Positions 2,651-47,429 of a DNA stretch of 64,000 nt are shown in pieces. The stretch is from Marchantia polymorpha subsp. ruderalis (Eukaryota; Streptophyta; Marchantiopsida; Marchantiales; Marchantiaceae): positions 2,438,001 to 2,502,000 of the forward strand of contig AP031357.1 in assembly GCA_037833965.1 (NCBI GenBank). The letters are read 5' to 3'. The position numbers were made by a program, and so were the translations under genes. How positions within the stretch are numbered: the stretch's first letter is position 1; each line of letters begins with the position of its first letter. A model generated the notes under the pieces. The model did not search any database. It was not told the DNA's origin and worked only from the letters and a program-made list of their open reading frames with translations.

Positions 2651-2735
2651 CAGGCCTCCCTATTTACGGGAAAATATTACTTGTACCGTAAATAACCGTA
2701 AATAAGATCCGGGTTATCCCGTAAATAAGGGCCTT
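2651..2735. repeat. hAT left terminus with subterminal CCGTAAATA repeats
   Basis: The left 85 bp contain the terminal repeat and several copies, in both orientations, of the motif CCGTAAATA. Clustered short subterminal repeats are the known transposase-binding sites of hAT elements such as Ac. The assignment as binding sites here is inference from position and repetition. Confidence 0.75.
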
Positions 2736-2889
2736 AATAGAATGTTTTTTATTGGCGGCACCCTAATCTTTACGGGCGCTCTTGACTGTCTTCCCTCCTT
2801 CAACTCGCCCTCCCCACCTCCCTTCTCCTCGCACTCTGTCTCGAGCACGCCTTATTACCAGCTTCACACTCAACTCCCGTGCTCCCGCT

Positions 2890-5079
2890 ATGCCGCGCGC
2901 GACGCTGCGTACGCCCTTCAACCCAGACCACCAAGTCAACTACGGACTTTCCATCGCAAGTCGGGACGCAGCCACGTCGGAGGTCGTTTCAGTCAATTGT
3001 CTCTTCTGTATTCACTTTGGCCGAGAGGACACAGACACGAGCACCGCCCAGGAAGAACGGAAGCGGTGCAGAACCGAAAATATCAAGTCTTTCACTAGGC
3101 CATTTCGAACCGACAATTACGTACAGCACTTTAGCCGCCAGCACAAGGCTCGCTGGGACCAATTCAATATCCTGGCCAGGGACCAGAAGGCCACCTTTTT
3201 CCAAAGAAATGCACCAGTCAGGCACAGGAACACCATTCCATCGCACTTCGCTGGCAACCAGACGACAATGCAGCTTTACATCAACAAAGCGATTGTTGAC
3301 GTCATCATCGGGAACCTACTTCTCGACCAGGACGACGACGACGGGCTGCCGAACATGTGCAGGGAAAGAGCACTTAGAATCTTCGAAGATATCGATCCCA
3401 ACACCGTTGAAGACCCTAGATTGGCCACTACCAAATATCGAATCGACATCTCGAATCCAAAGCAATTCAATCTGGTGGCGGGATTCCTCAGCATTGGAGT
3501 TTCCTTTCGCCAAGTAGAAGCTCTGGTTACCATGACGAAAGAAGTCACCGGCGTTGCGGAGATCGGCACTGCCAAAGATGAAAGGGTCGCTCAGTACGCT
3601 CGCTTTATTTTGGCGTTGAATCTGCAACATATCCACGACATCTTGGACAATAGCTCGGCATTCTCAATTGCGTTGGATATGTTCACTCACATGTCGACTT
3701 CTTACCTAGATATCTGCATTCGGCTCTTCTGGCATGGTGAGATCCTCAACTTGCACTTGATTGGGATTCCGGTTTTCTGCAGGCATACGGCAGCAAAAGT
3801 GTACCGCCACGCTTCGGCAATGCTGGATGTACTCTGCACTGAATGGAAGACTATGCTGATTTCAATCTCAACGGACGGCGAACCGCGAATGACCGGCCAC
3901 ATTGGCGGGGTGGCCACGCAATTTGAACAAGCAGCATTACCTAGCTTTTACCGCATCTGGTGTGATTTACATCAATTGGACTTGAAGTTGCGATCTTTCT
4001 ACGAAGAATTGATGGACGAACAATTTGTGTCAATGCTAACGGCACTCATTGGATACCTGCGCCGTCAACAGAATCTGATTAACGATATGGGAACGAAATG
4101 TAGCACACTCGCAGAAACAATGTGGGAATCCATGTCAAAGGTCGCCAGCTAGTTCAAAACGCACCGTGTGGCCATTAGAGAGTACCTGGAGGCGAAGATC
4201 CCGTCATGCAAACCGCCGCATGAATGGTGTGTAGTCCTAATGTACGTCAAAGATGTGTCCGCAGCCGCCACCGCTACCTTCAAGCAACTTCAAAAGTATG
4301 ACACTCTGGTCTCGCGGCAGCGCCAAGTCATCGCCAATCTACGGACTTGCTACAAAGACTATATCAAAGCAAACGGCCCATTAGCTTCTGGACAGCGTGA
4401 AGACATCGACATCGAGAGAGACGCTGTGCCCAGCAACGATTTGTACTCAGCTCGTGTCACAGATATGACCACGTTTCTGGAAGACATGGGTGGTTTTGTA
4501 TCCGATCGCATGCAACATGCCGGGCAAGCCAGCATGGAAAACCTGGCAAGAAACTTGAGCATGGGCCTGTTGAATTTGATCGCTGGGCTGGACAAAGTCG
4601 TGGCCGAACGAAACTCCTTGAATGGCGTTTCCTTATACGTGTTGCCACCAGTGCTGCCGCACGAGCTGGTGACACTGAATGGACGTGACTTTACCGCTAT
4701 TGTACGCGCACAACGTGAACGTCTTGCTGCTCGTTGGGCCCCTATTTCTGCAGAAGCGACAATGGACTACATTGAAACGGAATTCCGTGATCTCAAAAAT
4801 GCTTACCGCAATGAAGAGCCCTTCCGTAATGCATTGGACGGGTGTACATACCAAACGCCCTTCAGCAAGGCCTGGAAACTCATAAGTGGTTGATTCAAGA
4901 AGCTGGAGATGTTTTGTGGTGGACTGGCAAGCACTTTTCCGAGAACGTCCTCTGTAGAGCGCGACTTCTCCATTCTAAAATGGGAAAAAGACATCCACCG
5001 GATGAGCTTGATAGACTTTTCCCTGGAAGACGTGATGCACGCAAGGCAGTTCAAGCTTCTGCAGAAACTTACGTTCTAA
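2890..5079 (+). pseudogene. hAT transposase, interrupted by two in-frame stop codons
   Basis: A single frame runs from ATG at 2890 (MPRATLRTPF) to TAA at 5077-5079. It is about 729 codons, a normal size for a hAT transposase, and is broken only by TAG at 4150-4152 and TGA at 4891-4893. The N-terminal part has a BED-like zinc finger with Cys-x2-Cys in VNCLFC and His-x4-His in QHFSRQH. The middle contains ISTDGEPRMTGH, which fits the RNase-H-like core, and a conserved-looking YRIWCDLHQLDLKL. The last 60 codons, after the second stop, contain SSVERDFSILKWEKDIHRMS, resembling the hAT C-terminal dimerisation region. Because the frame is otherwise clean, inactivation looks recent. An upstream open stretch from 2782 lacks an ATG and is probably leader. 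Family assignment rests on ends, target duplication and domain order. Confidence 0.85.
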
Positions 5080-5157
5080 GCGAAGACAATGAATACAAAC
5101 ACGGTCCTTTGATACTCAGCTATCCCAACTGCTTTCGCTCTTCGTAGTAGTTTAATT

Positions 5158-5251
5158 AAGGACCTGTAAATAACCGTATCTAAGGTCGGACCTCGTCCCG
5201 TAAATAGCTTATTTACGGTATTTATGGAAGACCCGTAAATAGGTAGGCCTG
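5158..5251. repeat. hAT right terminus with subterminal CCGTAAATA repeats
   Basis: This stretch mirrors the left terminus. CCGTAAATA and its complement recur several times before the terminal repeat ending in AGGCCTG at 5251. Confidence 0.75.
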
Positions 5252-5445
5252 CTTATCAGCCATGTCAAAAGAAAGTGGTGTCCTCAGATACAAGAATGAT
5301 CTGACTTTACTTTCAATCTTCGGCTGAAAGCAAAACGAATCCCCTGACGAGCATGAGAAATCATCGAAGAATGTGTTCAGAATCTCCAGGGAATGCATTC
5401 ACCAGGCAGGCAGGCAGGACTCGTGTCAACTATCGACATTTATCA

Positions 5446-5679
5446 TCAGATGGTCGCTTGAGTTACAGCGTGAGCGGTTTGGTCGATGTGCTTCTCATCC
5501 ACGGAGCGTTTGTAATTGAAGGAGTCCTTGTAGAGGATGAAGCTTTGCTCGATGATGGGATACGGAGTTGCTGTGTACAAGTGGAAAGTGGAGTGGCCCC
5601 GAGCGCCGCGGAAATCGCCCTCGCCACCGACAACAGAGATTTCACGGTCTCCGTGACCGATCTCCGTGCCCTGGACCTG
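5446..5679 (-). pseudogene. Dirigent protein, C-terminal 77 codons only
   Basis: This is the 3' end of a dirigent gene, paralogous to 25930-26163. The frame is intact from the breakpoint to the TGA at 5446-5448 and includes GTEIGHGDREISVVGGEGDF and the C-terminal AVTQATI. Identity with the complete paralogue stops abruptly at 5679, where Ty3-like element sequence begins. The remaining two thirds, including the membrane anchor and first half of the barrel, are absent. It cannot make a functional dirigent barrel. Confidence 0.85.
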
Positions 5680-9386: not shown

Positions 9387-10157
9387 TTGACATTAAGAGT
9401 GTTCGCCTTACGAAGGAGGAAGCGGCGTCCGGCGGAAGTAGGTTTAAGTGGAGTCCCACCGGCGGAGGGAGAACGCGACCACACGTGTCGACTGGAAGAG
9501 TCACGCTCACATACTCCACAAGAAAAGTTAGGAGAAGCGGGAGTGCGGGCCGGAGTATCAGAGCCTGCAGTAGTGTACGAGGGCGAGTCACTTAGGACAT
9601 CGGCCAGGACAGAGATTCTCAAGTCGGAGGACACGCCTTCGGATGGGGAGTCTTCAGAGAGGGAGGAAGTTCAGTCGGTGCAAGGGACGCCGACCGGGGT
9701 GTTGTGTAGGCAAATGGTACCTCTACTTCGGTACCTTGATCGAAAAGTGGCCAAGACCTGGGATCTTGAACAGGGTGGGTCTTACGTAGAATTGGTGCGA
9801 AATTGGACGCGAGCCAAAGAGGCGGCGAACCCTGCCTTGAATGCGAAGGACAGGCAGTACAAGGACCTAGACGAGCGTTACAAGTTTTTGCATGATCAAT
9901 TGATAGAGTCACGGAGGATGCAGAAGGCAGCCTTGAAGATGCGGGACAGTGCAGTCCAGTGTACAAGGATAAAACTTAGCGCGCTTCGTACCCAGGTCCA
10001 AGCGAGCCTTGATTCTGAAAGGATTCAAAATCGTATACTGAAGGAAGAACTCGTGCCGGCGAGGAAGGCGTTGGAGGAGAAAGATGTCGCGAGACGGATG
10101 GATGAGGACTTGCTAAGGAGATTGCAATCGCAGTGTGACGAGTTGAGATCACAATGA
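9387..10157 (+). pseudogene. Coiled-coil ORF of a Ty3-like element, copy 2
   Basis: The frame is open for about 256 codons without an obvious ATG start and ends in TGA at 10155-10157. It contains a polar N-terminal half, TEILKSEDTPSDGESSEREE, then a helical half matching copy 1 (DRQYKDLDERYKFLHDQL, ARKALEEKD). Similarity to copy 1 fades a few bases after the stop, near 10172, close to the 21-bp repeat at 10178. Copy 1 reads through at the equivalent of this TGA (arginine codon), so this stop is probably a mutation. Confidence 0.55.
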
Positions 10158-10177
10158 GCAGCGTTAGTGGGAGTGAA

Positions 10178-10198
10178 ACTTCTAACTAGTTCGCATAA
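10178..10198. repeat. 21-bp direct repeat, left copy
   Basis: The 21 bases from ACTTCTAACTAG to TTCGCATAA are repeated exactly at 17368-17388. The left copy marks the switch from Ty3-like sequence to an A/T-rich block. Confidence 0.85.
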
Positions 10199-11340
10199 AC
10201 AACATATTAAAAATAAAAGTACACTTAAAAAATAAGACACATAGAAGAACTAATATTTGAAAACCTGTTGATATCCAAACTGTATCATATTAATTAAAAT
10301 ATATGCATAAATCCTCATTTTCATCATTTATCATAAATATGTCTAATTCATGGTACTTGGATAAAAATATATAAAAGTCATTTTATCATCAAAAACTCAT
10401 TGTTCAAATTTTTATTGATTTGTTCAATGATACCAGTAAAAAATAAAAATATCTATGTGATATATATGTATTTATTAAAGAAATGGTTTAATCAAACTAA
10501 AGCAGTAAATTTTTAATCAATATAATTATTTTTAAATGAATATTAAATAGTTTTAAAATTATAAATTGAAACTTCATAATTAAATTTCATAATTTACAAA
10601 AATTAAGAAGAGTTCAACATATAAAATTGATTAAAAATAATATTTTATTTAACTTAATTATTATATAAAAACACAGAAAAAATTAATTATAGTTATTTAA
10701 TAAGTTATTTAAAATTAAAAAATTATTTTTTGAATCCAATTTTTTAACTCCAATTTTTATTATGGGTTTAAAAAAACATAAAAAATTTAAGTAAAATTGA
10801 AATTTTTTGAATCCAAATTTTCTTAGGGGTTAAAAAGATTGTATATAAAATTTAATCAAACTTGAAATTTGAATAATATTTGAAAATTTCCGATTGTAAA
10901 GATATGATTTTAAAAATCAATGCAATGTCAAATAAAAATTTTGATTCTAGTTTTACACAAGAATTTAAAAAATATGTAGGAAAATTTATATAGTGTTTTA
11001 TACTTTAGTTTTTTTCATAGTTTGTGATGAATCATTTAGTTCCACAAGATGATGAATAAAAAAAGGCTTATCTAGTCTTGGCTTTTATAAATTGATAAAT
11101 TTTGGTTTTATATGATCTTAAGATCAAAATTATTGTTAATAGATTACAATGTATAAGCTATGTTTTGAATTAATATAGTCCAACTGTACATTTTTTTCAA
11201 ATATATAGTCTGAAAACTCATATCATTTGTAATATTTCATAATGTTATTAATAAGCAATGATAATTAGTGACTATATAATCTGAGAAAAAATATATTCTA
11301 TGTGACAACATTTAATTTAATGAAAGTAAAGCATGAAGTT
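10199..11340. other. A/T-rich block without genes
   Basis: The stretch is dominated by A and T, by eye about four fifths, with no open frame of note and no repeat structure that I can follow. It begins immediately after the 21-bp repeat and ends in ordinary composition near 11340. Confidence 0.7.
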
Positions 11341-11823
11341 ATAACATTAAGGAAGAGTTGACTTAGTTCATCTCTGGTTTCGTCTCGGAATCTTTTCAGG
11401 CTGCTGAGCATAAGATGAATAGCGTTGGCCTGGGCTCTGGATGCTTCGTCAGGGCCTGACTTGGAAAGAGTCTAAATATTTCCTCCTCTGGCATGAACTT
11501 TTCGAGTATGTCGGTTGCTTATTTAGAGATTCCATTGACGACTGCCCAACACAACCTCGCCATCGCCGGCATCGTTCTGTTTTCGATACCGTTTCCAGTC
11601 CGGATCTTTCATATCGCGAGAGGCGAATAGCCCAAAGGCCGTCGAGCACTCCGACTCTATCTCCTCGATCTCCTACTCCTCTTCTGTATAGGTGAGAAGA
11701 CCTCCAGAACTGCAGACTGCAAGCACCACATGCCTGGGGCATGGCACGTAAAGATGAAAAAGGACTGTTCATGCATCTAGGCCGCTCTGATCACAAAGGC
11801 AGATTCGCAGAGATAACCATGGA
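11341..11823. other. Unassigned sequence of ordinary composition
   Basis: No gene is supported. Short frames exist on both strands (11441-11695 plus, 11449-11772 minus) but neither resembles a protein that I know. Confidence 0.5.
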
Positions 11824-11932: not shown

Positions 11933-13726
11933 CAGGCCTCTGTAGATTAGGCAGATGCCTAAAACTGCCTAAACTCAGCAAATCCTAAAGAAGATTAGGC
12001 ATAACTAGGTATCATGCCTAGATGAGGCTAAAAGCAACTAACCGTTACTTTGGTTTCATGGCTTCATGTTAAACAAAAGATCCTACATTTTGCATTGGAA
12101 ATTAATTCCAAAGTCAAATAAACTGAAAACATCATGAGAGTAATGTTTTATTGCTTCATGGAAAGCGGAAGTGAATATTTTTTGCATTCAAAAAATTCTT
12201 TCAAAGAAAAGAAGATGAAAATATTACGATGGGATTGTTTCATTGTGAACGACAAGTCATATTGTTTGCATTGGAGAAACACTTTCAATGAAAATTTAAT
12301 CAATCACTAAATAATTACAGAAATACGTCACTTCAGAATTTCAACATCAAGAATTTGCTCTGGGTACTTGCCATGATACTTTTGAGAGTGACTGATACTC
12401 ATTCCGAGGGAGTGTGTGCTCGCTCTTGATATAATTGAGATAGTTTTTGAGGCACATCTTTTTACTAAACATCTTATTCGTGGTAACTTTTGATTGTTTT
12501 CCCTCCACTTTCCACTCTTGACCAAATAATAAACATTGACACAACTGGTCTTGAGATTTCTTTCTGGAATCTGAAGTAGTTACTCCTTTTTATGCAATCT
12601 ATTGCTTTATGGGTAATAGGATTCTGAGAGACTTTGACACGGTGTAAGAGGCTTTTAAAATATTTATGTTCCGAAGATTTGCTACTTTGACACTATGAAC
12701 AGGTGAATAGTACTCCAAACACGTTAAGAATAGGATTCTTTGAAATTTGAGATTAGGTATATCAGCAAGCCTCTGTACATTAGGCATTCTAAAAATAGAT
12801 GCCTAATATCTCTAATTTCAAATCTATTGAGTGCCTAATCTCCAAATTATTTTTTGAATAGTTTCAAAAAGAAAAATTATTTCTCGAGTAGTTTGAGGCA
12901 GAAAAATTTCCAAATGGCTAAATAGCAAAATGATCTAACTTATTAGTAGATTTCGTAAGTAAACTGTGTTCATTGTTTCCATATACAACATGTTGAGAGT
13001 GACTTCTCAATGTTGATATTATAAAAAAACAATTTTAACAGGTCACTTTTTTATTTTTCTTTATAATTGTTTTTCCAATGTAAACAATATGATATGTTGT
13101 GCACCTTGAAGCAATAAAACAAGGAGTATGATATTTTGCGCACTTTGAAGCAATAAAATAGGGAAATAATGTTTTTTGAGAGAATTCCTGTTTAAGACAC
13201 ATGCAAGAATCATTCTGGTGATTATACGTAACCTCGTTGATATGCTGTCTGTTACCATAGGTCATAGAGACTGAGAAAATTAGAGTCATTCAGATAATGG
13301 TGATTGTATATGAGAAGATTTCATGTAGTGGATCAAGTTGAGGCCCCGAACTTGGAATTTGGACAAATAGGGAAAAAATAGATATACTCGCCTGAACAAC
13401 GGGTTGAGAGAAATTTAATTAGACAGAAAATTTTTTATGTTTTTTTTTTATGAGAAGTTTTGGTTAAATTTGATAAAATAAATTTCGTTTAAAATTATTA
13501 TTTTTATAAGATATTGTTAAAGATTGAATCATTACTATGTAAAATTTAACTCAAATCGATAAAATATTAATCTTGGATTTTTTTAAATTGATGCCAAACG
13601 GTGACTAATTTCATTACGAATATGTGACTAATATACTAAGATTAGGCAAAAATAGACATATGGCTAAACTACAGAGGCCTGTATATCAGACATTTATTTT
13701 TTGAATGCCTAATCTACAAAGGCCTG
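11933..13726 (-). mobile_element. Non-autonomous hAT-like element, left copy, carrying a nested element
   Basis: Its ends are CAGGCCTCTGTAGATTAGGC at 11933 and the inverted AATCTACAAAGGCCTG ending at 13726. After removing the nested insertion and one target duplication, its length is about 870 bp. It is an inverted, closely similar copy of 13996-14862. TGCCTAA-type words recur near both ends, as subterminal repeats. No coding frame is present; short frames at 12328-12544 occur identically in the other copy only because the DNA is repeated. The flanking 8-mers (CTAATCAT and CATACGAG) do not match, so the original insertion site has been rearranged. Confidence 0.75.
12766..13681. mobile_element. 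Nested non-autonomous hAT-like element, 916 bp
   Basis: It begins CAAGCCTCTGTACATTAGGC and ends GGCTAAACTACAGAGGCCTG. It is flanked by a perfect 8-bp duplication, TATATCAG (12758-12765 and 13682-13689). The inverted sister copy at 13996-14862 has the same locus without the insertion, so this is an independent younger event. The interior is A/T-rich with no transposase. Confidence 0.88.
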
Positions 13727-13892
13727 CATACGAGCGAGATACATCCATGCTTTGACCCGGCAAGTGATGACGATCGCGGCACGCGCGCAATCGAGGGCCC
13801 ACAGCCCTGCATACGAGCGAGATACATCCATGCTTTGACCCGGCAAGTGATGACGATCGCGGCACGCGCGCAACCGAGGGCCCACAGCCCTG
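13727..13892. repeat. 83-bp tandem duplication, two units
   Basis: Units 13727-13809 and 13810-13892 begin CATACGAGCGAGATACATCC and differ at one position (T or C in GCAAYCGAGGG). The unit is GC-rich, in contrast to its A/T-rich surroundings, and lies between the two inverted hAT-like copies. Confidence 0.95.
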
Positions 13893-13995: not shown

Positions 13996-14862
13996 CAGGC
14001 CTACGTAGTTTAGGCATTCAAAAAATAAATGCCTGATATACCTAATCTCAAATTTCAAAGAATCCTAGTCTCAATGTGTTTGGAGTACTATTCACCTTTT
14101 CATAGTGTCAAAGTAGCAAATCTTCGGAACATAAATATTTTAAAAGCCTCTTACACCGTGTCAAAGTCTCTGAGAATCCTACTACCTATAAAGCAATAGA
14201 TTGCAGAAAAAGGAGTAACTACTTCAGATTCCAAAAAGAAATCTCAAGACCAGTTGTGTCAATGTTTATTATTTGGTCAAGAGTGGAAAGTGGAGGGAAA
14301 ACAATCAAAAGTTACCACGAATAAGATGTTTAGTAAAAAGATGTGCCTCAAAAACTATCTCAATTATATCAAGAGCGAGCACACACTCCCTCGGAATGAG
14401 TATCAGTCACTCTCAAAAGTATCATGGCAAGTACCCAGAGCAAATTCTTGATGTTGAAATTCTGAAGTGACGTATTTCTGTAATTATTTAGTGATTGATT
14501 AAATTTTCATTGAAAGTGTTTCTCCAATGCAAACAATATGACTTGTCGTTCACAATGAAACAATCCCATCGTAATATTTTCATCTTCTTTTCTTTGAAAG
14601 AATTTTTTGAATGCAAAAAATATTCACTTCCGCTTTCCATGAAGCAATAAAACATTACTCTCATGATGTTTTCAGTTTATTTGACTTTGGATTTCTTTTG
14701 CAATAGAAAATGTAGGATCTTGTGTTTAACATGAAGCCATGTAACGGTTAGTTGCTCTTAGCCTTATTTAGTCATGATACCTAGTCATGCCTATTTATAT
14801 TTATGATTTGTGCCTAATTTGCTGACATATGAGCAGGCATCTGCCTTTTAGGCAGATGCCTG
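13996..14862 (+). mobile_element. Non-autonomous hAT-like element, right copy, 867 bp
   Basis: It starts CAGGCCTACGTAGTTTAGGC and ends in the inverted terminus GGCAGATGCCTG at 14862. It is the inverted sister of 11933-13726, with which it aligns nearly throughout. Its outer end is embedded in a perfect palindrome (14824-14872). No coding potential is seen. Confidence 0.72.
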
Positions 14863-14872
14863 CTCATATGTC
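14824..14872. repeat. Perfect 23-bp palindrome with 3-nt loop
   Basis: Arms 14824-14846 and 14850-14872 are exactly complementary around TTT. The arm reads GACATATGAGCAGGCATCTG then CCT. It contains the CAGGC end of the element plus ten flanking bases on each side. Confidence 0.95.
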
Positions 14873-14892
14873 ATATATATCGTGAACTTGAG

Positions 14893-14900
14893 TATATATA
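14893..14900 (+). promoter_or_regulatory. TATA-like box upstream of the decarboxylase gene
   Basis: TATATATA lies 108 bp before the ATG. The leader is pyrimidine-rich and ends TCTTTCAAAATG, with A at -3, a good eukaryotic start context also usual in filamentous fungi. Confidence 0.45.
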
Positions 14901-15007
14901 CCTGAAAAGTCATTGTTGTGGAAGAGCTAAGCATATCTCAATATCTATTCTGAATCCTTCAATACACCATCTTCCTGCAGTGTTCGACATATCATCAATC
15001 TTTCAAA

Positions 15008-15547
15008 ATGTCTCCCTCATTGCCCGCCTTCCTTACCAACTCTCCTCTCGACCCTTCATTCGACAAGGACATCCGCGATACTCACCTGGTTTATGACTAC
15101 GATGCCTCGAACCCCAAGACCGGCGAGCGCGAAAAGTGGCGTCACGAATTGTGGTTCTTCAACGAAAACCGTATACACTATGCTATCCACGGTGGTCCGA
15201 TGGCAGGCAGAATCAATTACCAGACCTGCAGCTACCAATGCATCCGCCCAGGCGAGCTCTGGCAATGCAACTGGGTTGAAGAGACGGGCACCATTTGCTC
15301 TCTCGTCTACGACATCAAGCTCAAGAAGATTTCGGCCCTTGTCGGATTCTCTCAGGGCCACTGGGAGAACGCGGAGGCCGCTCACGGCGACAAGCGTAAC
15401 CCTGAGGACTTTGCTAGATGGAGGAAGCTGGCAGACATTGGTAACCAGCGAGCTCGCTTCATGGTTTCCGCGCAAGCTCACCTTGTCGAGATCTTCAAGG
15501 GCAAGGGCGATCTTATCCCCATTGAGGCCGACGCCCAGACGATTTAG
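15008..15547 (+). CDS. PAD: Phenolic acid decarboxylase, intronless, probably of fungal origin
   Basis: Encodes 179 residues in one exon. The family removes CO2 from p-coumaric, ferulic and caffeic acids, without cofactor, to give vinylphenols. It occurs in bacteria and fungi. The sequence follows the family order: LVYDYD (Tyr29 and Tyr31, matching the catalytic tyrosine pair of the Bacillus enzyme), FFNENRIHYAIHGGPMAGRI (Arg68, the carboxylate-binding arginine), NWVEETGTICSL (Glu91, the catalytic glutamate), then KKISALVGFSQGHWENAEAA. No signal or transit peptide is visible, so it is likely cytosolic. Its C and G content is clearly above that of the surrounding DNA, and it ends 178 bp before the converging stop codon of a broken FAD monooxygenase. 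Lack of introns, family distribution and a transposon setting argue for horizontal acquisition; contamination must be excluded. Confidence 0.88.
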   Translation: MSPSLPAFLTNSPLDPSFDKDIRDTHLVYDYDASNPKTGEREKWRHELWFFNENRIHYAIHGGPMAGRINYQTCSYQCIRPGELWQCNWVEETGTICSLVYDIKLKKISALVGFSQGHWENAEAAHGDKRNPEDFARWRKLADIGNQRARFMVSAQAHLVEIFKGKGDLIPIEADAQTI

Positions 15548-15725
15548 AGGTAGGCGTTATTCGTTTTCCATTAGACCAATACAACGACTGATCATGCTAT
15601 AGCTTGCGGAGTGTTCTCCGCATCGTATCACCAGTGTTTGATATTTGCAGCATTTTACAGCCTCATAGACATAGACATAGACGGGTAATTAAAATGGATT
15701 TATCTTAGAGCTTTGGCGGAGTGTA

Positions 15726-16400
15726 TTATGTACTTTCCAATGCAGCCACCGCTTCTTCCCACGTGTCAGCGATGTTGTGCTTGTAGATCCAGACCATTGC
15801 TGCAACCCCATCTTTGATGATTTTGATTTTGCCTTGTCATCGTAAGTAGGATCGCTCATGCGTTTCAATGTGTCTGCCCGCTTCGAGCCCTCGCTGGCGA
15901 GATGGGCATACATCCGTGAGTAATAAGGTAGCCTTATTGCGTCGAACAAGGGTAGAGCCCTGGTCAGGTCACTGTTGAATTATTGCAGAGCTCGAGCAAG
16001 GACCCATCCGTCCTCCATCGCGAAACCAGCCCCCGAGCCAAAGGCGCCTGATAGAGTATCAGAGGCATCGCCTACAGGAACTATCTGATTATCCCATGCT
16101 GTCAGCTGTGACAACTCTGGCAAAAGCAGCGAATTCTCGCCAGTCACCATTTGTGACTGGCGAGAATCAATTGGTTCCTATCATCAAGCTCATCTACGAG
16201 CTTGATTTTCGGAACCCTGGCTCCGAAAATGACAGTGAGCGATCCAGGCTTGACTATTCGTGCGGCTGTGAGACATCGGCAAATTTGCGCATCTGGTAGT
16301 TTGTGGCAATACGAGGGTAGCCTCTCTGTATGAAGTCTTGACAAACTGCGACAATATCCATATCTGCGGTCGGGAGATACAAGCCTGAAGCAGACGAACC
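15726..16400 (-). pseudogene. FAD-dependent monooxygenase (salicylate-hydroxylase type), broken
   Basis: Read on the minus strand, the C-terminal part is recognisable. IVPVGDASDTLSGAFGSGAG corresponds to the second FAD-binding GD motif of class A flavoprotein monooxygenases and is followed by AMEDGWVLARAL and LPLFDAIRLPYYSRMYAHL. One in-frame TAA interrupts the frame shortly after ARALQ, and a frameshift follows at DDKAKSK, beyond which VWIYKHNIADTWEEAVAAL continues to TAA at 15726-15728. Further upstream, short pieces (VCQDFIQRGYPRIATNYQMR) occur in other frames to about 16400-16560. No N-terminal Rossmann fold is found. It converges with the decarboxylase gene. Salicylate-hydroxylase-like is a guess within the class. 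Confidence 0.62.
16133..16167. repeat. 15-bp inverted repeat inside the monooxygenase remnant
   Basis: ATTCTCGCCAGTCAC at 16133-16147 is exactly inverted at 16153-16167 with a 5-nt spacer. It probably arose by local fold-back duplication during decay of the gene. Confidence 0.8.
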
Positions 16401-16560
16401 GAATGACTTGATTTGAACCTGGGGGAACTTTCACTGTATGGCACGTTGCATGCGCTGAATCAGGTTCAAGCGGACCTGCTCCTCGAAGTCTCGCGGTCTG
16501 AAATAGTCGTAGAAGTCGAGGATTTCCTCTTGAAGACTCGGCCAGCCTGTTGCTTCCTAG

Positions 16561-17367
16561 TTAAACCATGGGGTGGGGTCCGAGTTTCCATCATTCATTC
16601 ATTCATTCATTCAATTCATGTATTTGTCCATCTTGGCATGTACATGGGTCCCAATTCTTCCAACTTATGATCTCCTGCATAACAATTGTCTTCATGAATG
16701 ATGAATTGAATGAATGAATTGTCTTTAAATGATTTAGCACATGTAGATATGAATGTTCATGCGCTCAAACACAAAGATAAATAAATGAGTTTAAAAGCAT
16801 TCAACTAGAACGAGTAGATAATTTCACTCTCTACACTGTTAAGGTCGTGCAGAGAATGAGCTTACTGGCCATATATATACACAAGAAATCTTTAATTTAT
16901 CTATATAAGCCAGGAAGTTGTAGTCCAAGACTGCTTGATCATCATGGCCTGTCGTGGCCAGGTTGAATACACAGTGGGGCGAATAACCTTGTCCTGTTTT
17001 TATAAGTTCTAATCGCAAAACAATCCTTTCGATTCCAATTCAACTACAGCCAATTGATTCATAAACCGACCAATAATGCAAGATGTACCTGTGTGCGCGA
17101 TTACAACGCGAGCATGCACAGTGGAAACCTTCTCGTGGCCACAATGCTTAACACTTTCTGCTTGTTTCTTCACAGAGATCCACCTTCACTTGTCGGATCT
17201 TCAGTGCTACTATTGTAAGATTGACATGTGCGCATCTTTATCGAAGTTTCCCTGGCATGACAGCGTGTAATAGTCATTCTTCACCAAGGATGATGTCACC
17301 GATGTCCTCCATGCTTCTCAAACAATACTGCTGCGCTTATCCACAACGTGATAAATGACATCTATTC
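16561..17367. other. Unassigned sequence with (TTCA)n microsatellite
   Basis: No gene is supported. A tetranucleotide run of CATT type occupies about 16591-16612, with related GAAT words near 16690-16720. Confidence 0.6.
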
Positions 17368-22299: not shown

Positions 22300-24056
22300 A
22301 TGGCGTCTGCATTGTCCTCGCGGGTGGCTATCCCCTCTGTCTTCGTCGCCAAGAAATCAGCTCAATCGTCGACGAGCGCCAGGAGGAGTGTGGCAGTGTC
22401 TTGTGAGCAGCGTTCGTCCTCCGGCTGTGTCACCTGCCAAGTTTCCGAGGAGAAATGGGTGTCCACGAGACGAGACATCGTGGGAGGTGCAGCAGCGTTG
22501 CTGTCTGGTCTGCTCGCCGCGCCCGCATTCGCCCTTCTTGAAGCCGACGATGATGATTCTCTTCTGGAGAAAGTGAAGGAGGACAGGCAAAAGCGTCTCC
22601 AAAAGCGTGGCGCCGTTGTCTCGTACAAGAAAGAAGCAGGTACTCGACACCTCTAGCCAGATCATTAAAACTTTCCAATGTCCGAATCCTGCGCATCGAG
22701 CGATGCACACGAGGAAAGTCTCCTCTCGCAGCGGCCCTTGCGTTGTATCGTGTGTTGGCTTTCTTATATCCCGAATCCATTTGAAATTTCGAGAAAATGT
22801 GGCCACTGCCAGTGTCGAAGGCAAAGGCATGTCTACTCGAATGGAAAGCTTTCAATGTCCGAAGTCAGGTGTATGCAACATGACCGACTGTGGTAGTCAA
22901 TTGGACAAGTTCTGAAACAAACTGCGAAGCCGGCACGAGCAAAATGGTCCATAGTTCCGATTATATGTTTGTTGGATGAAAGCGCCATGTCTGGAATTCT
23001 GGCTGTCCGGATTTTTATGGGATTGGTTTCTGGCGTTTCGCTTACAATGCCGAGGTTCTGCTTTGGTATCGGCAGCTGGCACAAAACTTGCTGAATTCCT
23101 TCACCAGTTTATGTATCGACTGTCTTTTCTAAACCAGGGCCTGATGGTTTGCCGCCAAATGTGCAGAATCGATCCAAAAAGCCGTATATGAGCTGAGCAA
23201 GGCCGGACAGGCGCTTGACTCCTCGGATTTCTCCACAGCATCTGCTGTATTGGGGTCTAATACGTGGATCGTCGATGTTAAAGCTGCTCTGTCAACGGTG
23301 AGGCCTCTCGGAATTCAATCTCAGATTCGGGTTATCGCTCGTTGTTCTCGTCAAGGTTATCTGAAAAGAACACTTGGATTCGGAAGAGTTTTAGACATCT
23401 TGTACGTGGAATAGTTCATTCTGTTATTGTCAAAACGGGTCAAATGGTTTGATAGTACGGATAATGTTATTCTGCAACTGCGAGGACACTTCCGATTTGT
23501 GTTTTACATCGCTCGGAGAAGCTTCACTGCTATATGCACTTTTGGCCTACGGCAGCAATGTATGACTTCAATTCGCAGGGCGCTTAATTTGGACTGATGA
23601 TTGAAATATGCTGAACAACCTCTTTTACTTTTCATTGGTTCTGCAGGTGAGCAAAAGCGCTGAAGAACAAAGCGAAGCTGACTCCTTTGGCACCGCTCTT
23701 GCATCACTGCAAACAGCCGGTACGAAAATCTTACAATCACTCCCATGCAATCTACTGCTTTCCCGTGCAGGTCTGATGTACATCGTTTGCCCAATTTGTC
23801 TACCACCACATTCTTTAGCTGTAGCTTTCGAGATAGCGATTGTAGACATGTAAATTTGTTGTTTGTTCAGCTGAGTGTCGTTTGCTTAAGAAAACCCCGT
23901 CGTTATTTGTTGACTTTCTTAGTTGAAAAATGTGTGCATCTTGCAGTGTCCGCAAAAGATACAGAGGGGTCGAAATCCGCATTCGTGGCATCAGCTAGTG
24001 CTCTTGAGAAATGGTCATCCTTGACTGGTTTTTCAGAGCAAATCAAGGGCTTGTGA
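22300..24056 (+). CDS. MPH2: Thylakoid-lumen protein, MPH2/TL16-like
   Basis: Four exons, 22300-22639, 23167-23297, 23647-23719 and 23947-24056, join to 217 codons plus TGA with consistent phases and GT-AG borders. The N-terminus is a bipartite import signal: a Ser/Ala-rich stroma-targeting part, then a twin-arginine lumen signal STRRDIVGGAAALLSGLLAA with likely cleavage at APAFA. The mature part is helical: LLEKVKEDRQKRLQKRG, YELSKAGQALDSSDFSTASA, DSFGTALASL, then LEKWSSLTGFSEQIKGL. This matches my memory of the Arabidopsis lumen protein At4g02530 (TL16.5, MPH2), linked to photosystem II maintenance under high or fluctuating light, and the length is similar. Identification rests on the whole layout and the C-terminus. 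A partial paralogue lies at 362-1252; the dirigent gene converges downstream. Confidence 0.85.
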
Positions 24057-25929
24057 TTTCTTATTTGCCGATATTTTTCCTCTCAACATCGCACTGTTAT
24101 GGTTTCCTTCAATTTTTTCTTCTGTATCACAATCGGGCTCGATGCGTGTGAAGAAGTAAAGAAAGAAAATTTTTAATCTCAGTGATCCTTTTTCTGGGTG
24201 GATTCGAGATGCCATTGAAATAAGAGAATATTTGATTTTCATTTGACTCAAAGTGGTGCGAAGCCTTCAGGCGGATGGGGGCTATATGGTGTTTTCTCAT
24301 CCTTCTCTTTTATCTACTCTTTTCTCATCCACAATTATATATCACTCAAATGATGCCAATCGGAATAAGCAGTAAGTATCAACTGCGGGTGAGAAGTCTT
24401 GCGGCTAGGGCATACACTCCTCTGTGGTGTTTCAACAAGAAACTGCAGCCTCATTCTTTCTGTGTGCTCCCATCACGTCTCTCGTGGATGATTAAACAGA
24501 TGAGACGTCCTTTTTTCATCCTTAACACATGGATACATCACAACCTCATGCCACGAACAGTACCGAAGTACCGATGTACCGATGGGCTGATGTAATGGAT
24601 GCCCAAAGAATAGTGTTCGTGTTCTGTTCAGGAGAAAATGCCACGAATTTCATCGGAGGTTCCACATGCTCCATTCTTCCTCGCGTCAATCATGATTTTG
24701 TATGAGCCAGCACGTCCAGCGTGCTACCATGTCCGGCACCGATTACAATCTATTCAACGAAAGGTTCTCCGTAGGACGTTGCCTCAAAGAGTCACTGACT
24801 GTCCGAGAGAACAATTACTCACGAAGTCATCATTCCGTCGAGACACGCTCACTTTTTTTCTACCGATGGATGACGGATCTCTATCCACGACGATGGATCT
24901 CTATCTATCGTCGTAGAAACCAGGCTTGTGTCTAGACTAAATGATCAAGAGATCATTTACGGTCCGTAATGAATGATGTAATCGTAAATGAAATCTACAG
25001 CCAAGAGGATTGGGAGACCCCATCGAGGCCTAGAAGGACGAAACCGAGGGAGTGAGATTGGTACCTATCAACCTTCGTCTTCCATCTCTCAGTGCGTTCC
25101 AGTTCTCAGACTTTCTCTCACAATCTCACGTCATCTGCACGTTTCTTTCACGCTCAGCTTGCTGTCGACTACGTCCAACTCCTATCGCACTATGAGCATC
25201 GATGTGATTATCAGCAGACTGGATCCAAGTAGCTTACAATGTGTTGACAGGTCTAAATGTTTGGTCACTACTTTGCCAACCTTCAGATCACAAAGGAATG
25301 TTTTTAGCAGTCATGAGGTACTCTGAATACATTATTTATTTTCTATCTGCTTATTTCATACACAGTCATATCATAATCTCCATTGCTGATACGAAACGTG
25401 TCATATGTCAAGCAGTAATGCATGACCGCATTTCGAGTGCAGAATTGTTCCATAACCGACAGTGATCTTGTCTTACAGAACAGGCGAGAATGGACGACAT
25501 CTCAAAGCCATTTTCTTCCTTCTTCTGCATCGATAGTACATTTGATTTTTTGTTGACATCCGCTTGTGAACTTCGATCACTTTCTGCTGGAAGATACAGA
25601 ACTGCACGACTCTATTGCAAGAGAAATATACCACCGACAAATTTATGGAAAAGCCATCGTTCATCGGTAAGAAGGACTGCCAGAGTACTTAGATTATGGA
25701 TGTACATACATATGAATCTATCATCGAACGAGTGTTGACTTATCAGCCATGCGAAAAGAAAGTGGTGTCCTCAGATATAAGAATGATCTGACTCTACTTT
25801 CGATCTTCGGCCGAAAGCGAAACGAATCCCCTGAAGGAGCATGAGAAATCATCGAGGAATGCGTTTGGAATCGCCAGGAAATGCATTCACCAGGCAAGCA
25901 GGACTCGGGCCAGCGATCGAAATTCAGCT
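24057..25929. other. Duplicated intergenic DNA between lumen-protein and dirigent genes
   Basis: Colinear with 1253-2650 plus 5252-5445. It includes about 265 bp (24230-24494) missing from the other copy and the unoccupied hAT target CTTATCAG at 25739-25746. No gene is supported. Confidence 0.75.
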
Positions 25930-26547
25930 TCAGATGGTCGCTTGAGTGACAACGTGAGCGGTTTGGTCGATGTGTTTCTCGTCCACGGAGCGTTTGTAAT
26001 TGAAGGAGTCCTTGTAGAGGACGAAGCTTTGCTCGATGATGGGATATGGAGTTGCCGTGTACAAGTGGAAAGTGGAGTAGCCCCGAGCGCCGCGGAAATC
26101 GCCCGTGCCACCGACAACAGAGATTTCACGGTCTCCGTGACCGATTTCCGTGCCCTGGACCTGCAGGGTGCCCTGGTACTTGGGGTGATGCTCGAAGATG
26201 ACAGTGAACAGAAGATAGAAGTTCTCGCCTGCGAAATTGTCCATGATGGCCATGCCTTCGCGTCTTCCTATAAGCTTGGACGCCAAGTCAGGTCCCTCCG
26301 TGACATCGTTGTCGTAGATCAGCGTGCTTCCGAACGCCAGCTTGCTCATGTCGTGCGTGTCTTTGCCTGGCCCGGCGACGATTGCCACCTCGTTCGTGCA
26401 GTGGACGAAGAATGTCAGCGATTCTGTGTTGCCACCATCTTCTGAATGCTTACCCACGTTGTGGATTATGGCCCACATCAATAGCAATACTAGACCTATT
26501 CCTGAAACCCAAGAGATCCATTTGCGCCACGCCACATTTGGGATCAT
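25930..26547 (-). CDS. DIR: Dirigent protein with N-terminal membrane anchor
   Basis: Single exon of 205 codons. I place the start at the ATG at 26547 (MIPNVAWRKW); the open frame upstream has only GTG. Residues about 10-28 (ISWVSGIGLVLLLMWAII) form one hydrophobic segment, then a polar linker, then the dirigent barrel: FGSTLIYDNDVTEGPDLASK, REGMAIMDNFAGENFYLLFT, GTLQVQGTEIGHGDREISVV, GGTGDFRGARGYSTFHLYTA. The family guides coupling of phenoxy radicals, as in lignan formation, usually in the cell wall. The hydrophobic segment may be an uncleaved anchor or an atypical signal peptide, since no clear cleavage site follows. About 30 residues extend past the core. A truncated copy is at 5446-5679. 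Substrate is unknown. Confidence 0.88.
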   Translation of the reverse strand: MIPNVAWRKWISWVSGIGLVLLLMWAIIHNVGKHSEDGGNTESLTFFVHCTNEVAIVAGPGKDTHDMSKLAFGSTLIYDNDVTEGPDLASKLIGRREGMAIMDNFAGENFYLLFTVIFEHHPKYQGTLQVQGTEIGHGDREISVVGGTGDFRGARGYSTFHLYTATPYPIIEQSFVLYKDSFNYKRSVDEKHIDQTAHVVTQATI

Positions 26548-29500
26548 TTTGGCCCGGCCCCCTTCTCTCCCAGCCACGAAAGTTTATCGATCTATCGATC
26601 TGCCTGCCGACCCGAGTGGACTTTTTAATTTGGCTCCGCAAGCACTTGAGATAAAGCGATCGCAGGCTAAGATTCAATCACTGAGCTAGAATGTCGATGG
26701 ATGGAAGCCCGGACAGGCTGACAGATTGCCTGCGACGACCTCGATCTGTGTGAAGCTCGAGCTCCACAGATTGAGACCTTCGCGCCCACATCAGCTGTGG
26801 CATCGGACCGCGTTTCTTCAAACTTATAAGCCTGGGCTGGGCTGGGCTGGGCTGGGCTGGGCTGTTTCCTCGGGGCATGAGTCTGACCTCTGTACCAGGT
26901 CTCTATATCAGGCTTGTTTTCAATAGTATAAAAACTAACGACGGATTTCGTGAGTCTAAGAATCTGTACACTCGATTCTCGCTCAGCAGTCGATTCTATC
27001 GTGAATTACAGTATCTTACGATTGAAACTGCTGTACGAAACCTTCAGAACAGTGCTGAGCACGCTTTGCAGTTGCCATCTTTCCTGCGAGCTGAGAATCG
27101 AATTTCCTGAAGACTTGCTACTTCGTCGACGAATTGATGTCCAGTGTATGCACAATGTGTGAGAAGTAACTGAGAGGAGAAAGTCCACAGTTGGCACTTG
27201 GAGGGCCGATATCAACTCCAGATCTAAATTCATGACTTCAGCCAATCTTCGAAATCAGATTTTCAGCCTTCTCCAGAGAGAATTGTGGATAACACTCAGA
27301 AAGAAGACCAGCACTTTCATTCATTTAAAATAGATAGCAGAGCTTGATTCTCACAACTGCTTTGAAAGTGAACCAGAGTCATAGAGAAGTACAAGTCAGC
27401 GAACTGCAAACCACTTTGAACATGTTTCAACAGCTAGTTTCGACACAAATCAATTTAAAGCCATTTGATTCTATTAGAAATAATCATTTTAACTTGTCAG
27501 ATGTGTGCACAAGCGCGCAACTGTCATGATCAGTCTATGGCAAGTTGCATAGCGGAATCAAGTGATGAAGTGTGCCTATTCAACTCCAGTGGAAGCAGAA
27601 GAATCAGACCCCATTTACGTTTGTCCTTTAATAAGATGTACATTGCTCCACTTTACTTTACTATACGTTTAGGCAAAGTATGAGTGTACGGTATTTTTTG
27701 TAGTTGTGTGCAATTATTTGTTAAATCATTATTATTATTTATACATGTGAATTGATTATAATAAGAAAATCTTGAACTTGCATCGAGGAGAGTTTGCATG
27801 CATTAAGCTCTGAACAGATCGAGCACATATTTGCATGGTAAAATTCAACGGTGTACTTCGCATACCAGCCCATTGATACGTATGTATACAGCAAACCTGA
27901 TGTACTAGTTATTGAATGCAAAAACTATGATCCGAATTCAGCTGAACACCGATGGCATGATCTCCTTAAATTATGATCGCGAGCAGTTGATGTCGCAGGT
28001 TTGTTCTACATCTTGGTGTTGTCTTTGTACCTGGCTTGTCGCAAACAAATGATTTCCAATCATTTAGAACAAAAGAAGAGTTCAAAATAAGAAGAATGAA
28101 ATATTTAATATCTATTCAACGAAGAGAACTGAACTCACTGCGCAACATGCTCAGAATTGCATCCACTGTGCCGATTTGTGGGTCCAGGTTTGATCCACGT
28201 CACAGGGTCACACAAAAATGCATGTCCACGAGGGCTTATCCTATTCGAATGGCCCGCGCTGACTATTTCCAGCCATGTGTGAATCTTCTCGTTACCTGAT
28301 CACTGTGATCTCGAAGTGCTCGTCACAAGATTCTGTTTGATGTGGCCTTGCCATTTGGTCTCGGAAAACGAAGACGAAGGTAACGACATGAACTTGCAGT
28401 CAGTCAATTAGCCGTATTATTCCATGCCAATGTGCTTAACACTGCCTGCCGTCAACGAGTGCAATGTGACTCATAGTAGCTAAAGCCAAGGCTTTACTTC
28501 GATCAAGCTCTGTCGATCTGGATCCAGACTTTCCAAGGCACTCCTGGCTCACCGATAAGGCAGTGGCACCACCTACACTGATCATCATCTTGATACATAA
28601 ACTTTTTTCGTAGCCATGCACTGCAACAAACTCGATGTCATGTACCGTTGCTCTGGTTCTTGCTTCAATTTGCAGGAGGGTGATGGTTTTGTGTTTCTTC
28701 AGGGGCTGTTTCATTTTTACATCAATGACAGCGCGTACAAGATGGTGGGGCATGTATATAAAACACCACAAATTCTGACCCTGTGCGGCCACCTAAGCTC
28801 TTTGTCAATAGAGCTCGAAATGAATGAATGTTTGACGGGAAATCTCACATACCTGTCGCCGGCAGCTATCGTACTTGACATCGAGAAAGCTGCGGAACTT
28901 CTGCCTTGAAACGATATCATGTTCTGCTCTGACATGGACCTCAGAGCACGTGATTAACGCATGCAAACGTGTTTGAGAATCTCGGCCAGAAAATGCGACC
29001 CCAGGCTCGAATTTTGTTCTACTCGTCGGCTTTAGCTGGATCATCAGATGTGTGACTTCAAATGCAATATTACAAACATGTGGTCAGCATCCCTTCAGAT
29101 GTAGCTCACAATCTCTTATGACGGATACCCACAGTATTCTGTCAGCGACACCATTCTTCGACACTTCGGCAACGGCAGATGTCATTTGCACTCGGGGTTG
29201 GGATCGACGTCTACATCTGGACATTCTCCTGCTCGTCCGAATTTCCTAATAATTGGCTCTCGAAGCAATTTACTGGAGTCTGAGTACATGTATCTTCGAA
29301 ACAATATTCACGCGTCCGCCATGCCATCACAGATCTGTCTGCTAAACGGCACTCCAGTACAAACGGGCCAAACTGTAGATCCACGGATAATACCGTCAAC
29401 TCGAGCGTCCAATTCGCTGGACTCAAGTGACCACACCATTGTCAGTAGATCTGGAGTACACCGTGCAATTCGCGCGGACATGATTTGGAGTATGAGCTTT

Positions 29501-30327: not shown

Positions 30328-30739
30328 AACACCTACGGGCTAATTGATCCATTAATAGAAACGAAGAATGAACAAAAGGAAGTCTATATGTATAATTCTT
30401 CTTTTGCATCTAGTCTTGTGTTTAAGCGGAGCTTGCAGTAGTATATGAATGTTCGATGGTTGCACCGGTGCTATAAATGACAGGCGAATGAACATGGTCA
30501 AAAGATTGCTACTACTCTCGTTGTTTAGAATAACTTTTATTGGAATAAGATTTACGGTGGGTTGTATGGCCGTCGAGTGGAGTAGAGTTACATCGGGTAA
30601 AATGAAAACTCTCGGGTCCCATCCCATCAGTTTTGAGTTTACCAAGGGGTCCCATCCAATAATTTCCTCGCCGAATTCCATAATATCATTGAAGATCAAT
30701 CCAATAAAAATTTGCATCATCTCCATATGAGCATAAGTT

Positions 30740-33700
30740 ACTGCAAAAATTGTATTTATCATCATGTATCTGTTTTACAATACATCGTATATCTATGTTT
30801 TATAATGTGAATAACAAGTCTCATTCAATTTGATTTGGCTGAAAAAGAATCATTACACATACCATTGGATTTTCATAGTTGAAGATTAAATTTTAACTTG
30901 GCGAGAAATACATTTTGTTGAAACATTAATGATCAGTTTACTTTTTCCACTGGAGTATTATATTTGGAGATGATATTTTCTACCAAACACACTCTTTTCA
31001 TATCCAGAATTGTGTTTGTAATCATTTTAGGCCATCAAATTATAAAAAAATGTAGTTGAAATGTAATTAAATAATCAAGATGATATATCTTTTAAAAGTA
31101 GAAATATCAAATCTTATCTTATCAAATCTTGCACAAATTTCATAAAAAATATTCAGAATACTAATTTCTTTGAAGCTTTAATGTAATCTAAAATCATGCT
31201 TACATATAATATATCATTAATTTCTTTTAACATTCATTAAAAAAATTGGCATTTATGTCTCCTTTAATTCTTAGCTTGTTTTGCAACTCAATCAATATTA
31301 TTCTTGTGATATCTTCATGCATCATGATGAATCATCATTTAGCTCATCAATGTAATCAAATGTTGTGTTGAAAAATTAAACAAGCTTAGTTATAAAAGAT
31401 TTTGAATTGTAAAATTAAAATTAGTTTAAATGAATCAAAGTGTTGAATATATTAATTTTAGCCATGGAAAAATTGGTTAAATTATAACTAAGTTTAGCAG
31501 ATTATTTCTTACTTAAAGAAATAAATCGTTATGAAAAATAAATTATTTTAATATTAAAAAATAAATTTTAAAGTTCATATTTTACATAGATTTTGTTCAA
31601 TTTGATATTTTATTGACTTAATGAAAGTTTATTCATTATTTTCTTTGATTTGATATATCAACTAAAAAATTGAAAATCTGAAATTCTTAATATTTTTAAC
31701 ATTAAAAATTTGAAATTAGGACTATATAGATTTTAGTATATCTTAATAAATATCATAATAGTATTTTGAAATAATTTTTTAACAAAAAAGTGTATTATTA
31801 AGATGAAACTTAATATAAAAAATTTCTGTAAAAATTTTATTTATTAAAAAAAATATTTTTTTAAAAAATGAAATAATAAATAAGTAGAATTTTAGTTTTT
31901 TATTTGAAAAAATTAATAAAAAATTATATATATAATTTCAATAAAAAATTAATCTTCAAATGGTTTTAAATTCCATTTGAAATATTTAAAAAAAAATTCA
32001 ACAAATATTTATAATAATATTTATTGAAAATTCTATGCAAATTCAATACCAAAATTTAAAAAAATTTAATCAAAAACTAGTTTTATGAATTTAGATGATA
32101 TGAAAAATCTGGAATTTTTCTTGTAAATGAATTTATTTTAAAAAAAACTATAAATAAAAATTATGTGCAATTGTTGATTCAAATCTAGATTATAAATCAA
32201 ACATTAGACATCGATTATAAACTAGTAGTTATTTCATGAGTAAAACTATAACAATATATGATATAATATTTGATCGTCTAGTTCAAAAAATCAATATATG
32301 AAATTTAAGATGATAATTGTAAAACATTTATCTTGAAAAAAAATCATATATATATATATATCAATAAATTTAATTGAGATTTTACTTCCTCGGAAAATGG
32401 TCCCTCCCTTGATGGGCGGATTAGAAATTTCTGATCGCACAAAGGGTTCGGAATCTTGGCGTTTGATTAGTACTCCTGCCGTCCAAGCAACTTTCATGAA
32501 TTAATTTTGACTCAAATCTTTTACGGTATATATCCATCAAATTTTGATTGACAATTGAAATTTTAATGCTTTGCACATTATATTATTTAAGATTTTCAAA
32601 ATCACACAAAGATGCACATGGACACAATTAAAATATTTTACACGAATGATAGATATTGGATGACAGAATTCGGACCCAGTTTGTCATCCGGTCTGGGCGC
32701 ATCGTGTGAACCATGGTCGTCAACCATCATCATACTACTAACAACTACTCATTTGTTGATTTTTACTCTCTCTTACTACTCTAAACAATTCCTGAACTAT
32801 TAATCTTCTTCCGCAATCATTGTGTATCATTACATCGTTAGCCATATGACTTGATGAATAATCATCTTTAAATTCAACACTATTCGAAGATTGGACACAA
32901 CAATGCTCAAAGCACTAACACGTGGCGTGTATTGGACGTGTAGTGCTGTGGTATTGAATCTCGAGTTCATAACTAACAGAGTCACAAGTGCAAGACGTCA
33001 CATAGGCGCGGGTAGCATGCTTGGGCAATACATGCAAACAGTTGTATCATGATGATGTATTATTGATATTGACTTTATCTAACCCTTTTGGAGATATTGA
33101 GTTGCAGAGATTTGCATAACAGTAGTTTTGATAGAATCTTGAGTTGACATATTAAATGAACCTCAAATGCACAACGTCACGTAGGCGCGGGTAGCATGTT
33201 AGGTTACATTGCGCAAGCTGGCAACAGTATGTTAAACTATAAGCAAAACTAATTTTTCATAAAATTTATTACTACATTAAAAAAATGAAATAAAAGTAAT
33301 TTGATATACAAATCTTGAAGATGAATTATATTTATCATAAATAGATATATATATATATAAGTAAATTATTACATTATTAATCAATTCCAACTATCAAACA
33401 CATATTTTTTTAACATATCAAACATAATCAAATCACTATAAGTCAATTATATTTTTTTCTTAAAAATCCAAAATTTTAGTTCTAATCTACTAAAGATTAT
33501 TAAATTTGCTTCATGAAATTGATTCATATTTTAATTATGCTAATATATTATGGTAATGTGTATATTTTTGTTAATTTTAAAAAATTTAATAATAAAAAAT
33601 CATTTGGCAATTTAAATATTTTGTTTTTTTATTTAGTCTTTAAGTTATATTTATTCACAAAATAATGATAAATATTATCTGGTATTATAAACAATGTGAT

Positions 33701-35440: not shown

Positions 35441-35560
35441 AAAGAATGATGGGATGCAAGTAGTACCGGCCTACGTGGAACGCAAGAAGGAGCGAACTTG
35501 GCACATAATCAACCAGCAACTACGTGTACGAGCCCCGGTCAGTATCGCACGAAACATACG

Positions 35561-36387
35561 CAGGCCTCTCTATATAGGGCGGATTCCGTATGTTCCGTAT
35601 CTCAACAAAATAAGGATAATTTTCAAATCGAAATACGGAACATAAGGAACTCTACAGTTTTCGGCCGAATTTTGACCTAAAATTCCAAGTTTTCGGCCGA
35701 ATTTTTCGGCAATGTAATACAACCTCGAGAGAAATGGGTGTTATCTTTGATCTCTAAATATATTTTCCCATTTTAGCAAGGAGAAATCACTCTTCACACC
35801 GTTGAAGTGTTTGGATATGGTGAAACTAATACTACGAAAAACTCCATGTTGAAGGAATCTATTTTTAAAACCTGGAATCAAACTTTTCAGTCAATAGCTA
35901 GAACATCGACTTCGTGATGTTCTGGGTTCACTATTTTATCTTTGTATTTTTTTTTTCGAGAAATTTTGAGACTTATTTGATATTTTAGAATAATTGAATA
36001 AATTTTTGTGTTTTCAAAATTACAAGTGAATGAGATAACCAAGGAAACAAAATATGAGAACTTGGTTGAGCTCATCAGGTGTCACCGCAAAATTTTAGTC
36101 AAGTACTCAATTAGTTTCTCTAGTAAAGTAACGGTAATGAACAAAGAAATTGCCAGAAACGATCACGGCAAAGATTTAGCTGAATATTTGCGTAAGTTTC
36201 TCTAGTAAAACTACCTACATCAACAAAGATTTGTCAAAAATTACCACCCCAAATTTTAGTTACGTGACTCTGGTAGGTTCTACAGCTAGACAACAAATAC
36301 TTTTGGTTGGAAATAAGGAACTTTCTGAAAACGAAATACGGCACTTTGGCCCTCAAGTTCCGTATATGCCGTATTTAGAGAGGCCTG
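35561..36387. mobile_element. Non-autonomous hAT element, 827 bp
   Basis: Ends are CAGGCCTCTCTATATAGGGC at 35561 and the inverted GCCGTATTTAGAGAGGCCTG ending at 36387, flanked by a perfect 8-bp duplication, AACATACG (35553-35560 and 36388-36395). CCGTAT words recur close to both ends and the interior repeats TTTTCGGCCGAATTTT. There is no transposase frame. The terminal CAGGCCT is shared with the autonomous element at 2651-5251 and with the family at 11.9-14.9 kb. Confidence 0.93.
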
Positions 36388-47421: not shown

Positions 47422-47429
47422 CGATTGTA

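Follow-up and report, generated by a model that had tools for sequence, protein, structure and literature searches.

A fungal-type phenolic acid decarboxylase gene beside broken gene pieces in the genome of Marchantia polymorpha

Described phenolic acid decarboxylases and the Marchantia locus

The closest described systems to the locus reported here are phenolic acid decarboxylases (PADs) of liverworts, ferns and fungi. The liverwort enzyme CjPAD of Conocephalum japonicum (Gao et al. 2016) works best at 25 degrees C and has been characterised as akin to the PADs of microbes (PMC6099575), and the fern Ceratopteris possesses 26 PAD genes, ascribed to bacterial transfer in a paper according to which PADs are found, among plants, solely in leptosporangiate ferns (PMC9477723). 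Two Edman-sequenced peptides are given in the paper on the yeast enzyme CgPAD of Candida guilliermondii (PMC3402150). The paper on NlePAD, whose alignment comprises five fungal PADs, reports that a His near the Arg/Glu pair is conserved in all fungal PADs analysed and that B. subtilis has Val there (PMC10886158). Fungal genes have also been documented in Marchantia, for example those for terpene synthases and lectins (PMC12890914).

Here, we analyse a window of 64,000 nucleotides from Marchantia polymorpha subsp. ruderalis (contig AP031357.1, positions 2,438,001 to 2,502,000), which holds an open reading frame (ORF) for a PAD:

15008-15547, plus strand: intact PAD ORF, 179 amino acids from ATG to TAG, without internal stop

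By its signature residues this PAD is of fungal type, and we consider it likely that it entered M. polymorpha in a multi-gene piece of DNA, of which the other genes (the passengers) have decayed and the PAD frame has stayed intact. A preliminary description of the locus, made from the sequence alone, had held that PAD is not a normal land-plant gene; this view is outdated, as CjPAD and the 26 Ceratopteris PADs had already been published. The novelty may lie in the multi-gene scar that can still be seen, land-plant PADs themselves being known. In the main text of a 2026 PNAS paper on horizontal transfer in M. polymorpha, in the form available to us, no word begins with 'phenolic' and the sole 'decarboxylase' is orotidine 5' decarboxylase. 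No Marchantia PAD was named in the literature searched, a body that takes in few subscription papers, and no paper matched when that literature was searched with peptide strings.

Identity and type of the decarboxylase

At the base composition of the ORF, the chance that a given frame stays open over 179 codons is about 0.001. The protein matches the PAD family PF05870 over residues 25-116 (30.5 bits, above the cut-off of 24.6; E 3.4e-7), and a phmmer search of the PDB at E up to 1 returned 15 sequences (best E 3.2e-9), all 15 of which carry PAD or ferulate/p-coumarate decarboxylase names; an NCBIfam search at E up to 1 gave no family. The PAD active site is described as a Tyr/Tyr/Arg/Glu set (PMC10886158, PMC3402150), and the corresponding Tyr29, Tyr31, Arg68 and Glu91 are invariant in an alignment with 12 bacterial PADs. 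The predicted fold is a PAD-like beta-barrel (Foldseek, VIA), in a comparison in which non-PAD barrels reach VIA scores equal to those of PADs. A MoaF-like protein of lipocalin fold would be a different identity for such a barrel; the MoaF structure 4q51 has a VIA score similar to those of PADs, though it ranks behind them in Foldseek, and the Pfam family MoaF_like (PF22036) gives a weak match of 15 bits. However, this match lies below its cut-off of 27, whereas PF05870 exceeds its own, and the PAD active-site residues are all present, so that we regard a MoaF-like identity as highly improbable. The frame at 15008-15547 is thus confirmed, at the level of sequence, as a real ORF and a microbial-type PAD gene with predicted enzyme activity. 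The preliminary description had assigned it to the PAD family on the catalytic Tyr pair, Arg and Glu and had proposed a protein search; both the retained residues and the search results bear this assignment out.

Its designation as 'microbial type' also stands and, by signature residues, can be narrowed to fungal. The CgPAD peptide AFSQGHWEHPEQAHGDKRED is identical to the Marchantia protein at 14 of 20 positions, whereas its best ungapped match in any of 25 bacterial PADs reaches 4-6 of 20. The Marchantia protein has the fungal-type His118 together with the stretch GHWE..E.AHGDKR; neither GHW nor HGDK is present in any of the 25 bacterial PADs, one of which (L057) ends before that region. The spacing from Glu91 to His118, 27 residues, equals that from E73 to H100 in NlePAD (PMC10886158). 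The motif HGGPMAGRI parallels the CgPAD mutagenesis primers, which encode HGGP(Met57 changed)AGRH (PMC3402150), and the bacterial PADs sampled carry HxGLVGGRW or HGGMV(A/K)GRW. By these marks the PAD is of fungal type, though it is not close to CgPAD. Relative to CgPAD and the bacterial PADs, it has nine extra residues after the Tyr pair; this longer loop, which in PADs lies at the active-site entrance, may change the substrate range.

The bacterial loci came from a scan of genome contigs with alignment A1, which yielded 25 loci from 67 candidate stretches at 29-35% identity; by title, 23 are gammaproteobacterial (mostly enterobacterial) and two lactobacillar. The same type of scan with the protein alone used exact peptide patterns, a design that can reach only close relatives; none turned up among 52 candidate stretches. 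A plasmid scan gave 59 records, all below 60% identity, from Pantoea (55), Duffyella (3) and Enterobacter (1). Viral contigs, a collection not expected to contain fungal chromosomes, held no match for the protein, for the degenerate pattern GHWE..E.AHGDK or for part of the Trf4 piece described below. A bacterial origin was considered and is not favoured: the scans gave only distant loci, none of the 25 with GHW or HGDK, within a narrow sample.

As family knowledge has it, such a beta-barrel would act without a cofactor, the two tyrosines binding p-coumarate, ferulate or caffeate by its carboxylate and the Arg/Glu pair acting at the other end; a quinone-methide intermediate would then lose CO2 to give a 4-vinylphenol. 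The gene would probably let the plant convert its own phenolic acids to vinylphenols.

Broken neighbours, flanking repeats and the contamination question

The PAD ORF is followed by pieces of two other genes and bordered by repeats:

11979-12765 and 14033-14810, no strand: left and right arms of a long inverted repeat, 95-96% alike
14823-14873, no strand: perfect palindrome with 24-base arms and a 3-base loop, at the left edge of the PAD-bearing stretch
14874-15007, plus strand: leader of 134 bases from the left palindrome to the ATG, GC 0.34
15732-16150, minus strand: broken C-terminal piece of an FAD monooxygenase, with TAA at 15980-15982 within the homologous stretch
16133-16167, no strand: perfect palindrome with 15-base arms and a 5-base loop, where the two broken pieces meet
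16174-16556, minus strand: remnant of a broken Trf4-type nucleotidyltransferase (beginning of the palm domain), with TGA at 16431-16433 inside the Pfam match
16900-17340, no strand: dispersed repeat of the host, also present on contigs C4 and C7
18573-18974, minus strand: retrotransposon-like integrase zinc-binding domain in the flank (PF17921, E 3.8e-9)

The monooxygenase piece lies tail-to-tail with PAD. Its part at 15836-16150 on the minus strand matches kynurenine 3-monooxygenase (phmmer E 1.5e-4 for the whole sequence) in an alignment that crosses the internal stop; no Pfam family was found for the piece at E up to 0.1. The Trf4-type homology covers 16257-16556 (PF22600, E 9.9e-16), and the matches of this piece in the PDB are terminal uridylyltransferase 7 (E 1.4e-6), followed by 3nyb, 'Poly(A) RNA polymerase protein 2' (E 5.5e-6), which we take to be yeast Trf4. 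Reading of the frames suggests further shifts of frame near 15827 and 16090 in the monooxygenase piece and near 16261 in the Trf4 piece. In the organism's own genome, the Trf4 piece has only weak matches (28-58% over 24-47 amino acids, E of 0.003 or higher) and the monooxygenase piece, at E up to 1, none except itself, so that neither is a close copy of a host gene. The sequence from 14880 to 16580 is single copy as DNA in that genome, the only second match being the palindrome at 16133-16167 on itself, and searches with the Pfam model and with the protein found only one PAD place in the nine contigs (241,466,482 bases). On its right side, the foreign stretch ends at some point between about 16556 and 16900.

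The leader contains a TATA-like tatatata at 14893-14900, with A at -3 of the ATG, and is a putative promoter. To its left, the long inverted repeat is probably a host repeat element; within this AT-rich element, two GC-rich 83-base tandem units, 96-98% alike, occupy 13717-13892. The GC content is 0.55 in the ORF and 0.34 both at 14000-14873 and at 16574-16900, rising further right to 0.44 and then 0.51. The preliminary description had rightly noted an ORF richer in GC than its immediate flanks, but as an argument for origin this is weak: the contrast is partly one between coding and non-coding sequence, and the third-position GC (GC3) of the PAD ORF, 0.69, is barely above that of three host ORFs in the window, namely a dirigent ORF (0.68) and two neutral invertase exons (0.62 and 0.58). 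We therefore gave GC little weight as evidence of foreign origin. The plant-type transposon surroundings claimed there correspond to transposon-like flanks, namely the long inverted repeat, the host repeat from about 16900 and the integrase domain.

A fungal contaminant, or a fungal contig joined in error, would account for a fungal-type gene of GC 0.55 that adjoins sequence of 0.34. However, the stretch of about 1.7 kb sits inside a chromosome-scale contig, one of nine, flanked left and right by host repeats, and the genes next to the PAD are broken, a state hardly expected of a Trf4-type gene in a living fungus. Intact copies would be expected in a living contaminant. Broken passengers beside an intact PAD, inside a chromosome between an inverted-repeat element and a dispersed host repeat, fit an insertion of foreign DNA. 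If the present assembly is v7.1, the approximately 100x HiFi coverage and 14 kb mean read length of the v7.1 assemblies (PMC13078153) also count against a mis-join. We consider contamination extremely improbable, in agreement with the case made against it at the outset, which now includes the repeats on both sides, the scale of the contig and the broken neighbours.

Elsewhere in the window, two exon-like ORFs of an alkaline/neutral invertase gene at 56868-58106 (minus strand; GH100, E 1.5e-92 and 3.4e-65) are evidence of plant context. A segmental duplication of 90-93% identity flanks the PAD region on the left and right (1-2651 and 22812-25747; 5252-5679 and 25739-26163). A dirigent-domain ORF at 25930-26583 on the minus strand recurs in part at 5252-5679; dirigent proteins, too, act on products of the phenylpropanoid pathway. 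Some 2.6 kb, 2651-5252, are present in only one copy of the duplication and perhaps represent a transposon; the two long ORFs within them (2767-4152 and 4153-4893) matched no Pfam family at E up to 0.1. Blocks of 17-31% GC, up to about 5 kb long, occur at 10000-11500, 30500-36000 and 47000-49000. They are mostly not tandem arrays, because a tandem-repeat finder gave no array at 30.5-36 kb and, in the other two blocks, just short ones at 10.5-10.9 and 48.3 kb. Rfam gave no match at the gathering threshold.

Transfer, decay and relation to known decarboxylases

In the scenario we favour, a piece of DNA of about 1.7 kb or longer would have entered the liverwort genome from a fungus, carrying also parts of a flavin monooxygenase and a Trf4-type nucleotidyltransferase gene; these passengers would then have decayed and the PAD frame stayed whole. 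The fungal donor, the single transfer event, and the activity, expression and plant role of the enzyme are what we infer beyond the arrangement itself. Across about 275 codons, the passengers show two stops in homologous stretches and three apparent frame changes. Set against neutral rates of flowering plants, this count would suggest, as a rough guess, an age of a few million years. Because the lesions are few, the insertion would be younger than the split from Conocephalum and hence perhaps independent of CjPAD.

Several points limit confidence in this scenario. At the second CgPAD peptide, the Marchantia protein matches only 4 of 20 positions ungapped, against 11-12 of 20 for bacterial PADs, partly because of the nine extra residues that follow the Tyr pair; the narrow bacterial sample weakens the comparison of fungal and bacterial types; barrels other than PADs score equally high in VIA; base composition carries little information on origin; and the passengers could have arrived separately or already broken. 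Selection on PAD was also considered from lesion counts and is not significant, the probability of a lesion-free PAD being 0.08 for five lesions placed at random and 0.37 for the two stops alone. These values are in keeping with a functionless recent insertion, in which PAD would be unexpressed and whole only for shortness of time and the passengers are decaying with no sign of constraint on PAD. The complete frame, all four active-site residues, the TATA-like leader and the A at -3 speak against such an insertion, which we hold to be possible but rather unlikely.

We would give similarly modest credence to an old liverwort gene, that is, a fungal PAD acquired before Conocephalum and Marchantia (both of the order Marchantiales) separated, inherited since and orthologous to CjPAD, the broken pieces having arrived independently. 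CjPAD occurs in another liverwort of this order and is described as microbial-PAD-related (PMC6099575), and the sole PAD of the present genome must be its orthologue if one exists here. However, the passengers are still recognisable and carry few lesions, which at the neutral rates of plants fits an age in the millions of years and not one of a hundred million.

Our preferred reading, a fungal-type PAD that arrived with passengers since decayed, could be extended further: a recent transfer of DNA from fungus to liverwort, caught midway, with parts of at least three genes, the passengers decaying and selection keeping PAD alone as a new vinylphenol branch off the phenylpropanoid pathway, independent of CjPAD and of the fern PADs. 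Taken as a whole, this extended account is speculative and, in our estimate, somewhat improbable. If a separate, recent multi-gene transfer is true, it would be a datable case in a genetic model, with the passengers supplying a neutral clock next to the gene that was retained, and knocking this gene out in Marchantia would directly probe the plant role of a vinylphenol-forming enzyme. If the gene is orthologous to CjPAD, a published case would merely be extended to the model species.

Among known PADs, the bacterial enzymes (Pantoea, Kluyvera, Weissella and others) share the active site and the fold with the Marchantia protein at 26-35% identity, but none of the 25 has GHW or HGDK. CgPAD resembles it in the GHWE..E.AHGDKR stretch, in HGGPMAGR and in the Tyr/Tyr/Arg/Glu set, but has 168 amino acids, lacks the nine-residue insertion and differs at its N-terminal peptide (4 of 20). 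The filamentous fungal enzymes NlePAD, ScoFAD, IfaPAD and AlPAD have, like the Marchantia PAD, a His 27 residues after the catalytic Glu (PMC10886158, PMC7751879). Eight residues after this Glu, the Marchantia PAD has Leu, at a position where only NlePAD is reported to have Met; the Tyr-to-Arg spacing is 28 residues in NlePAD (Tyr23-Arg51) versus 37 here (Tyr31-Arg68). The PADs of leptosporangiate ferns, Ceratopteris and others, are likewise PADs gained by land plants, but they are reported as sister to bacteria, with 26 copies in Ceratopteris (PMC9477723), whereas the Marchantia PAD is single copy and of fungal type. CjPAD, as described, is likewise a microbial-related PAD in a liverwort of the Marchantiales.
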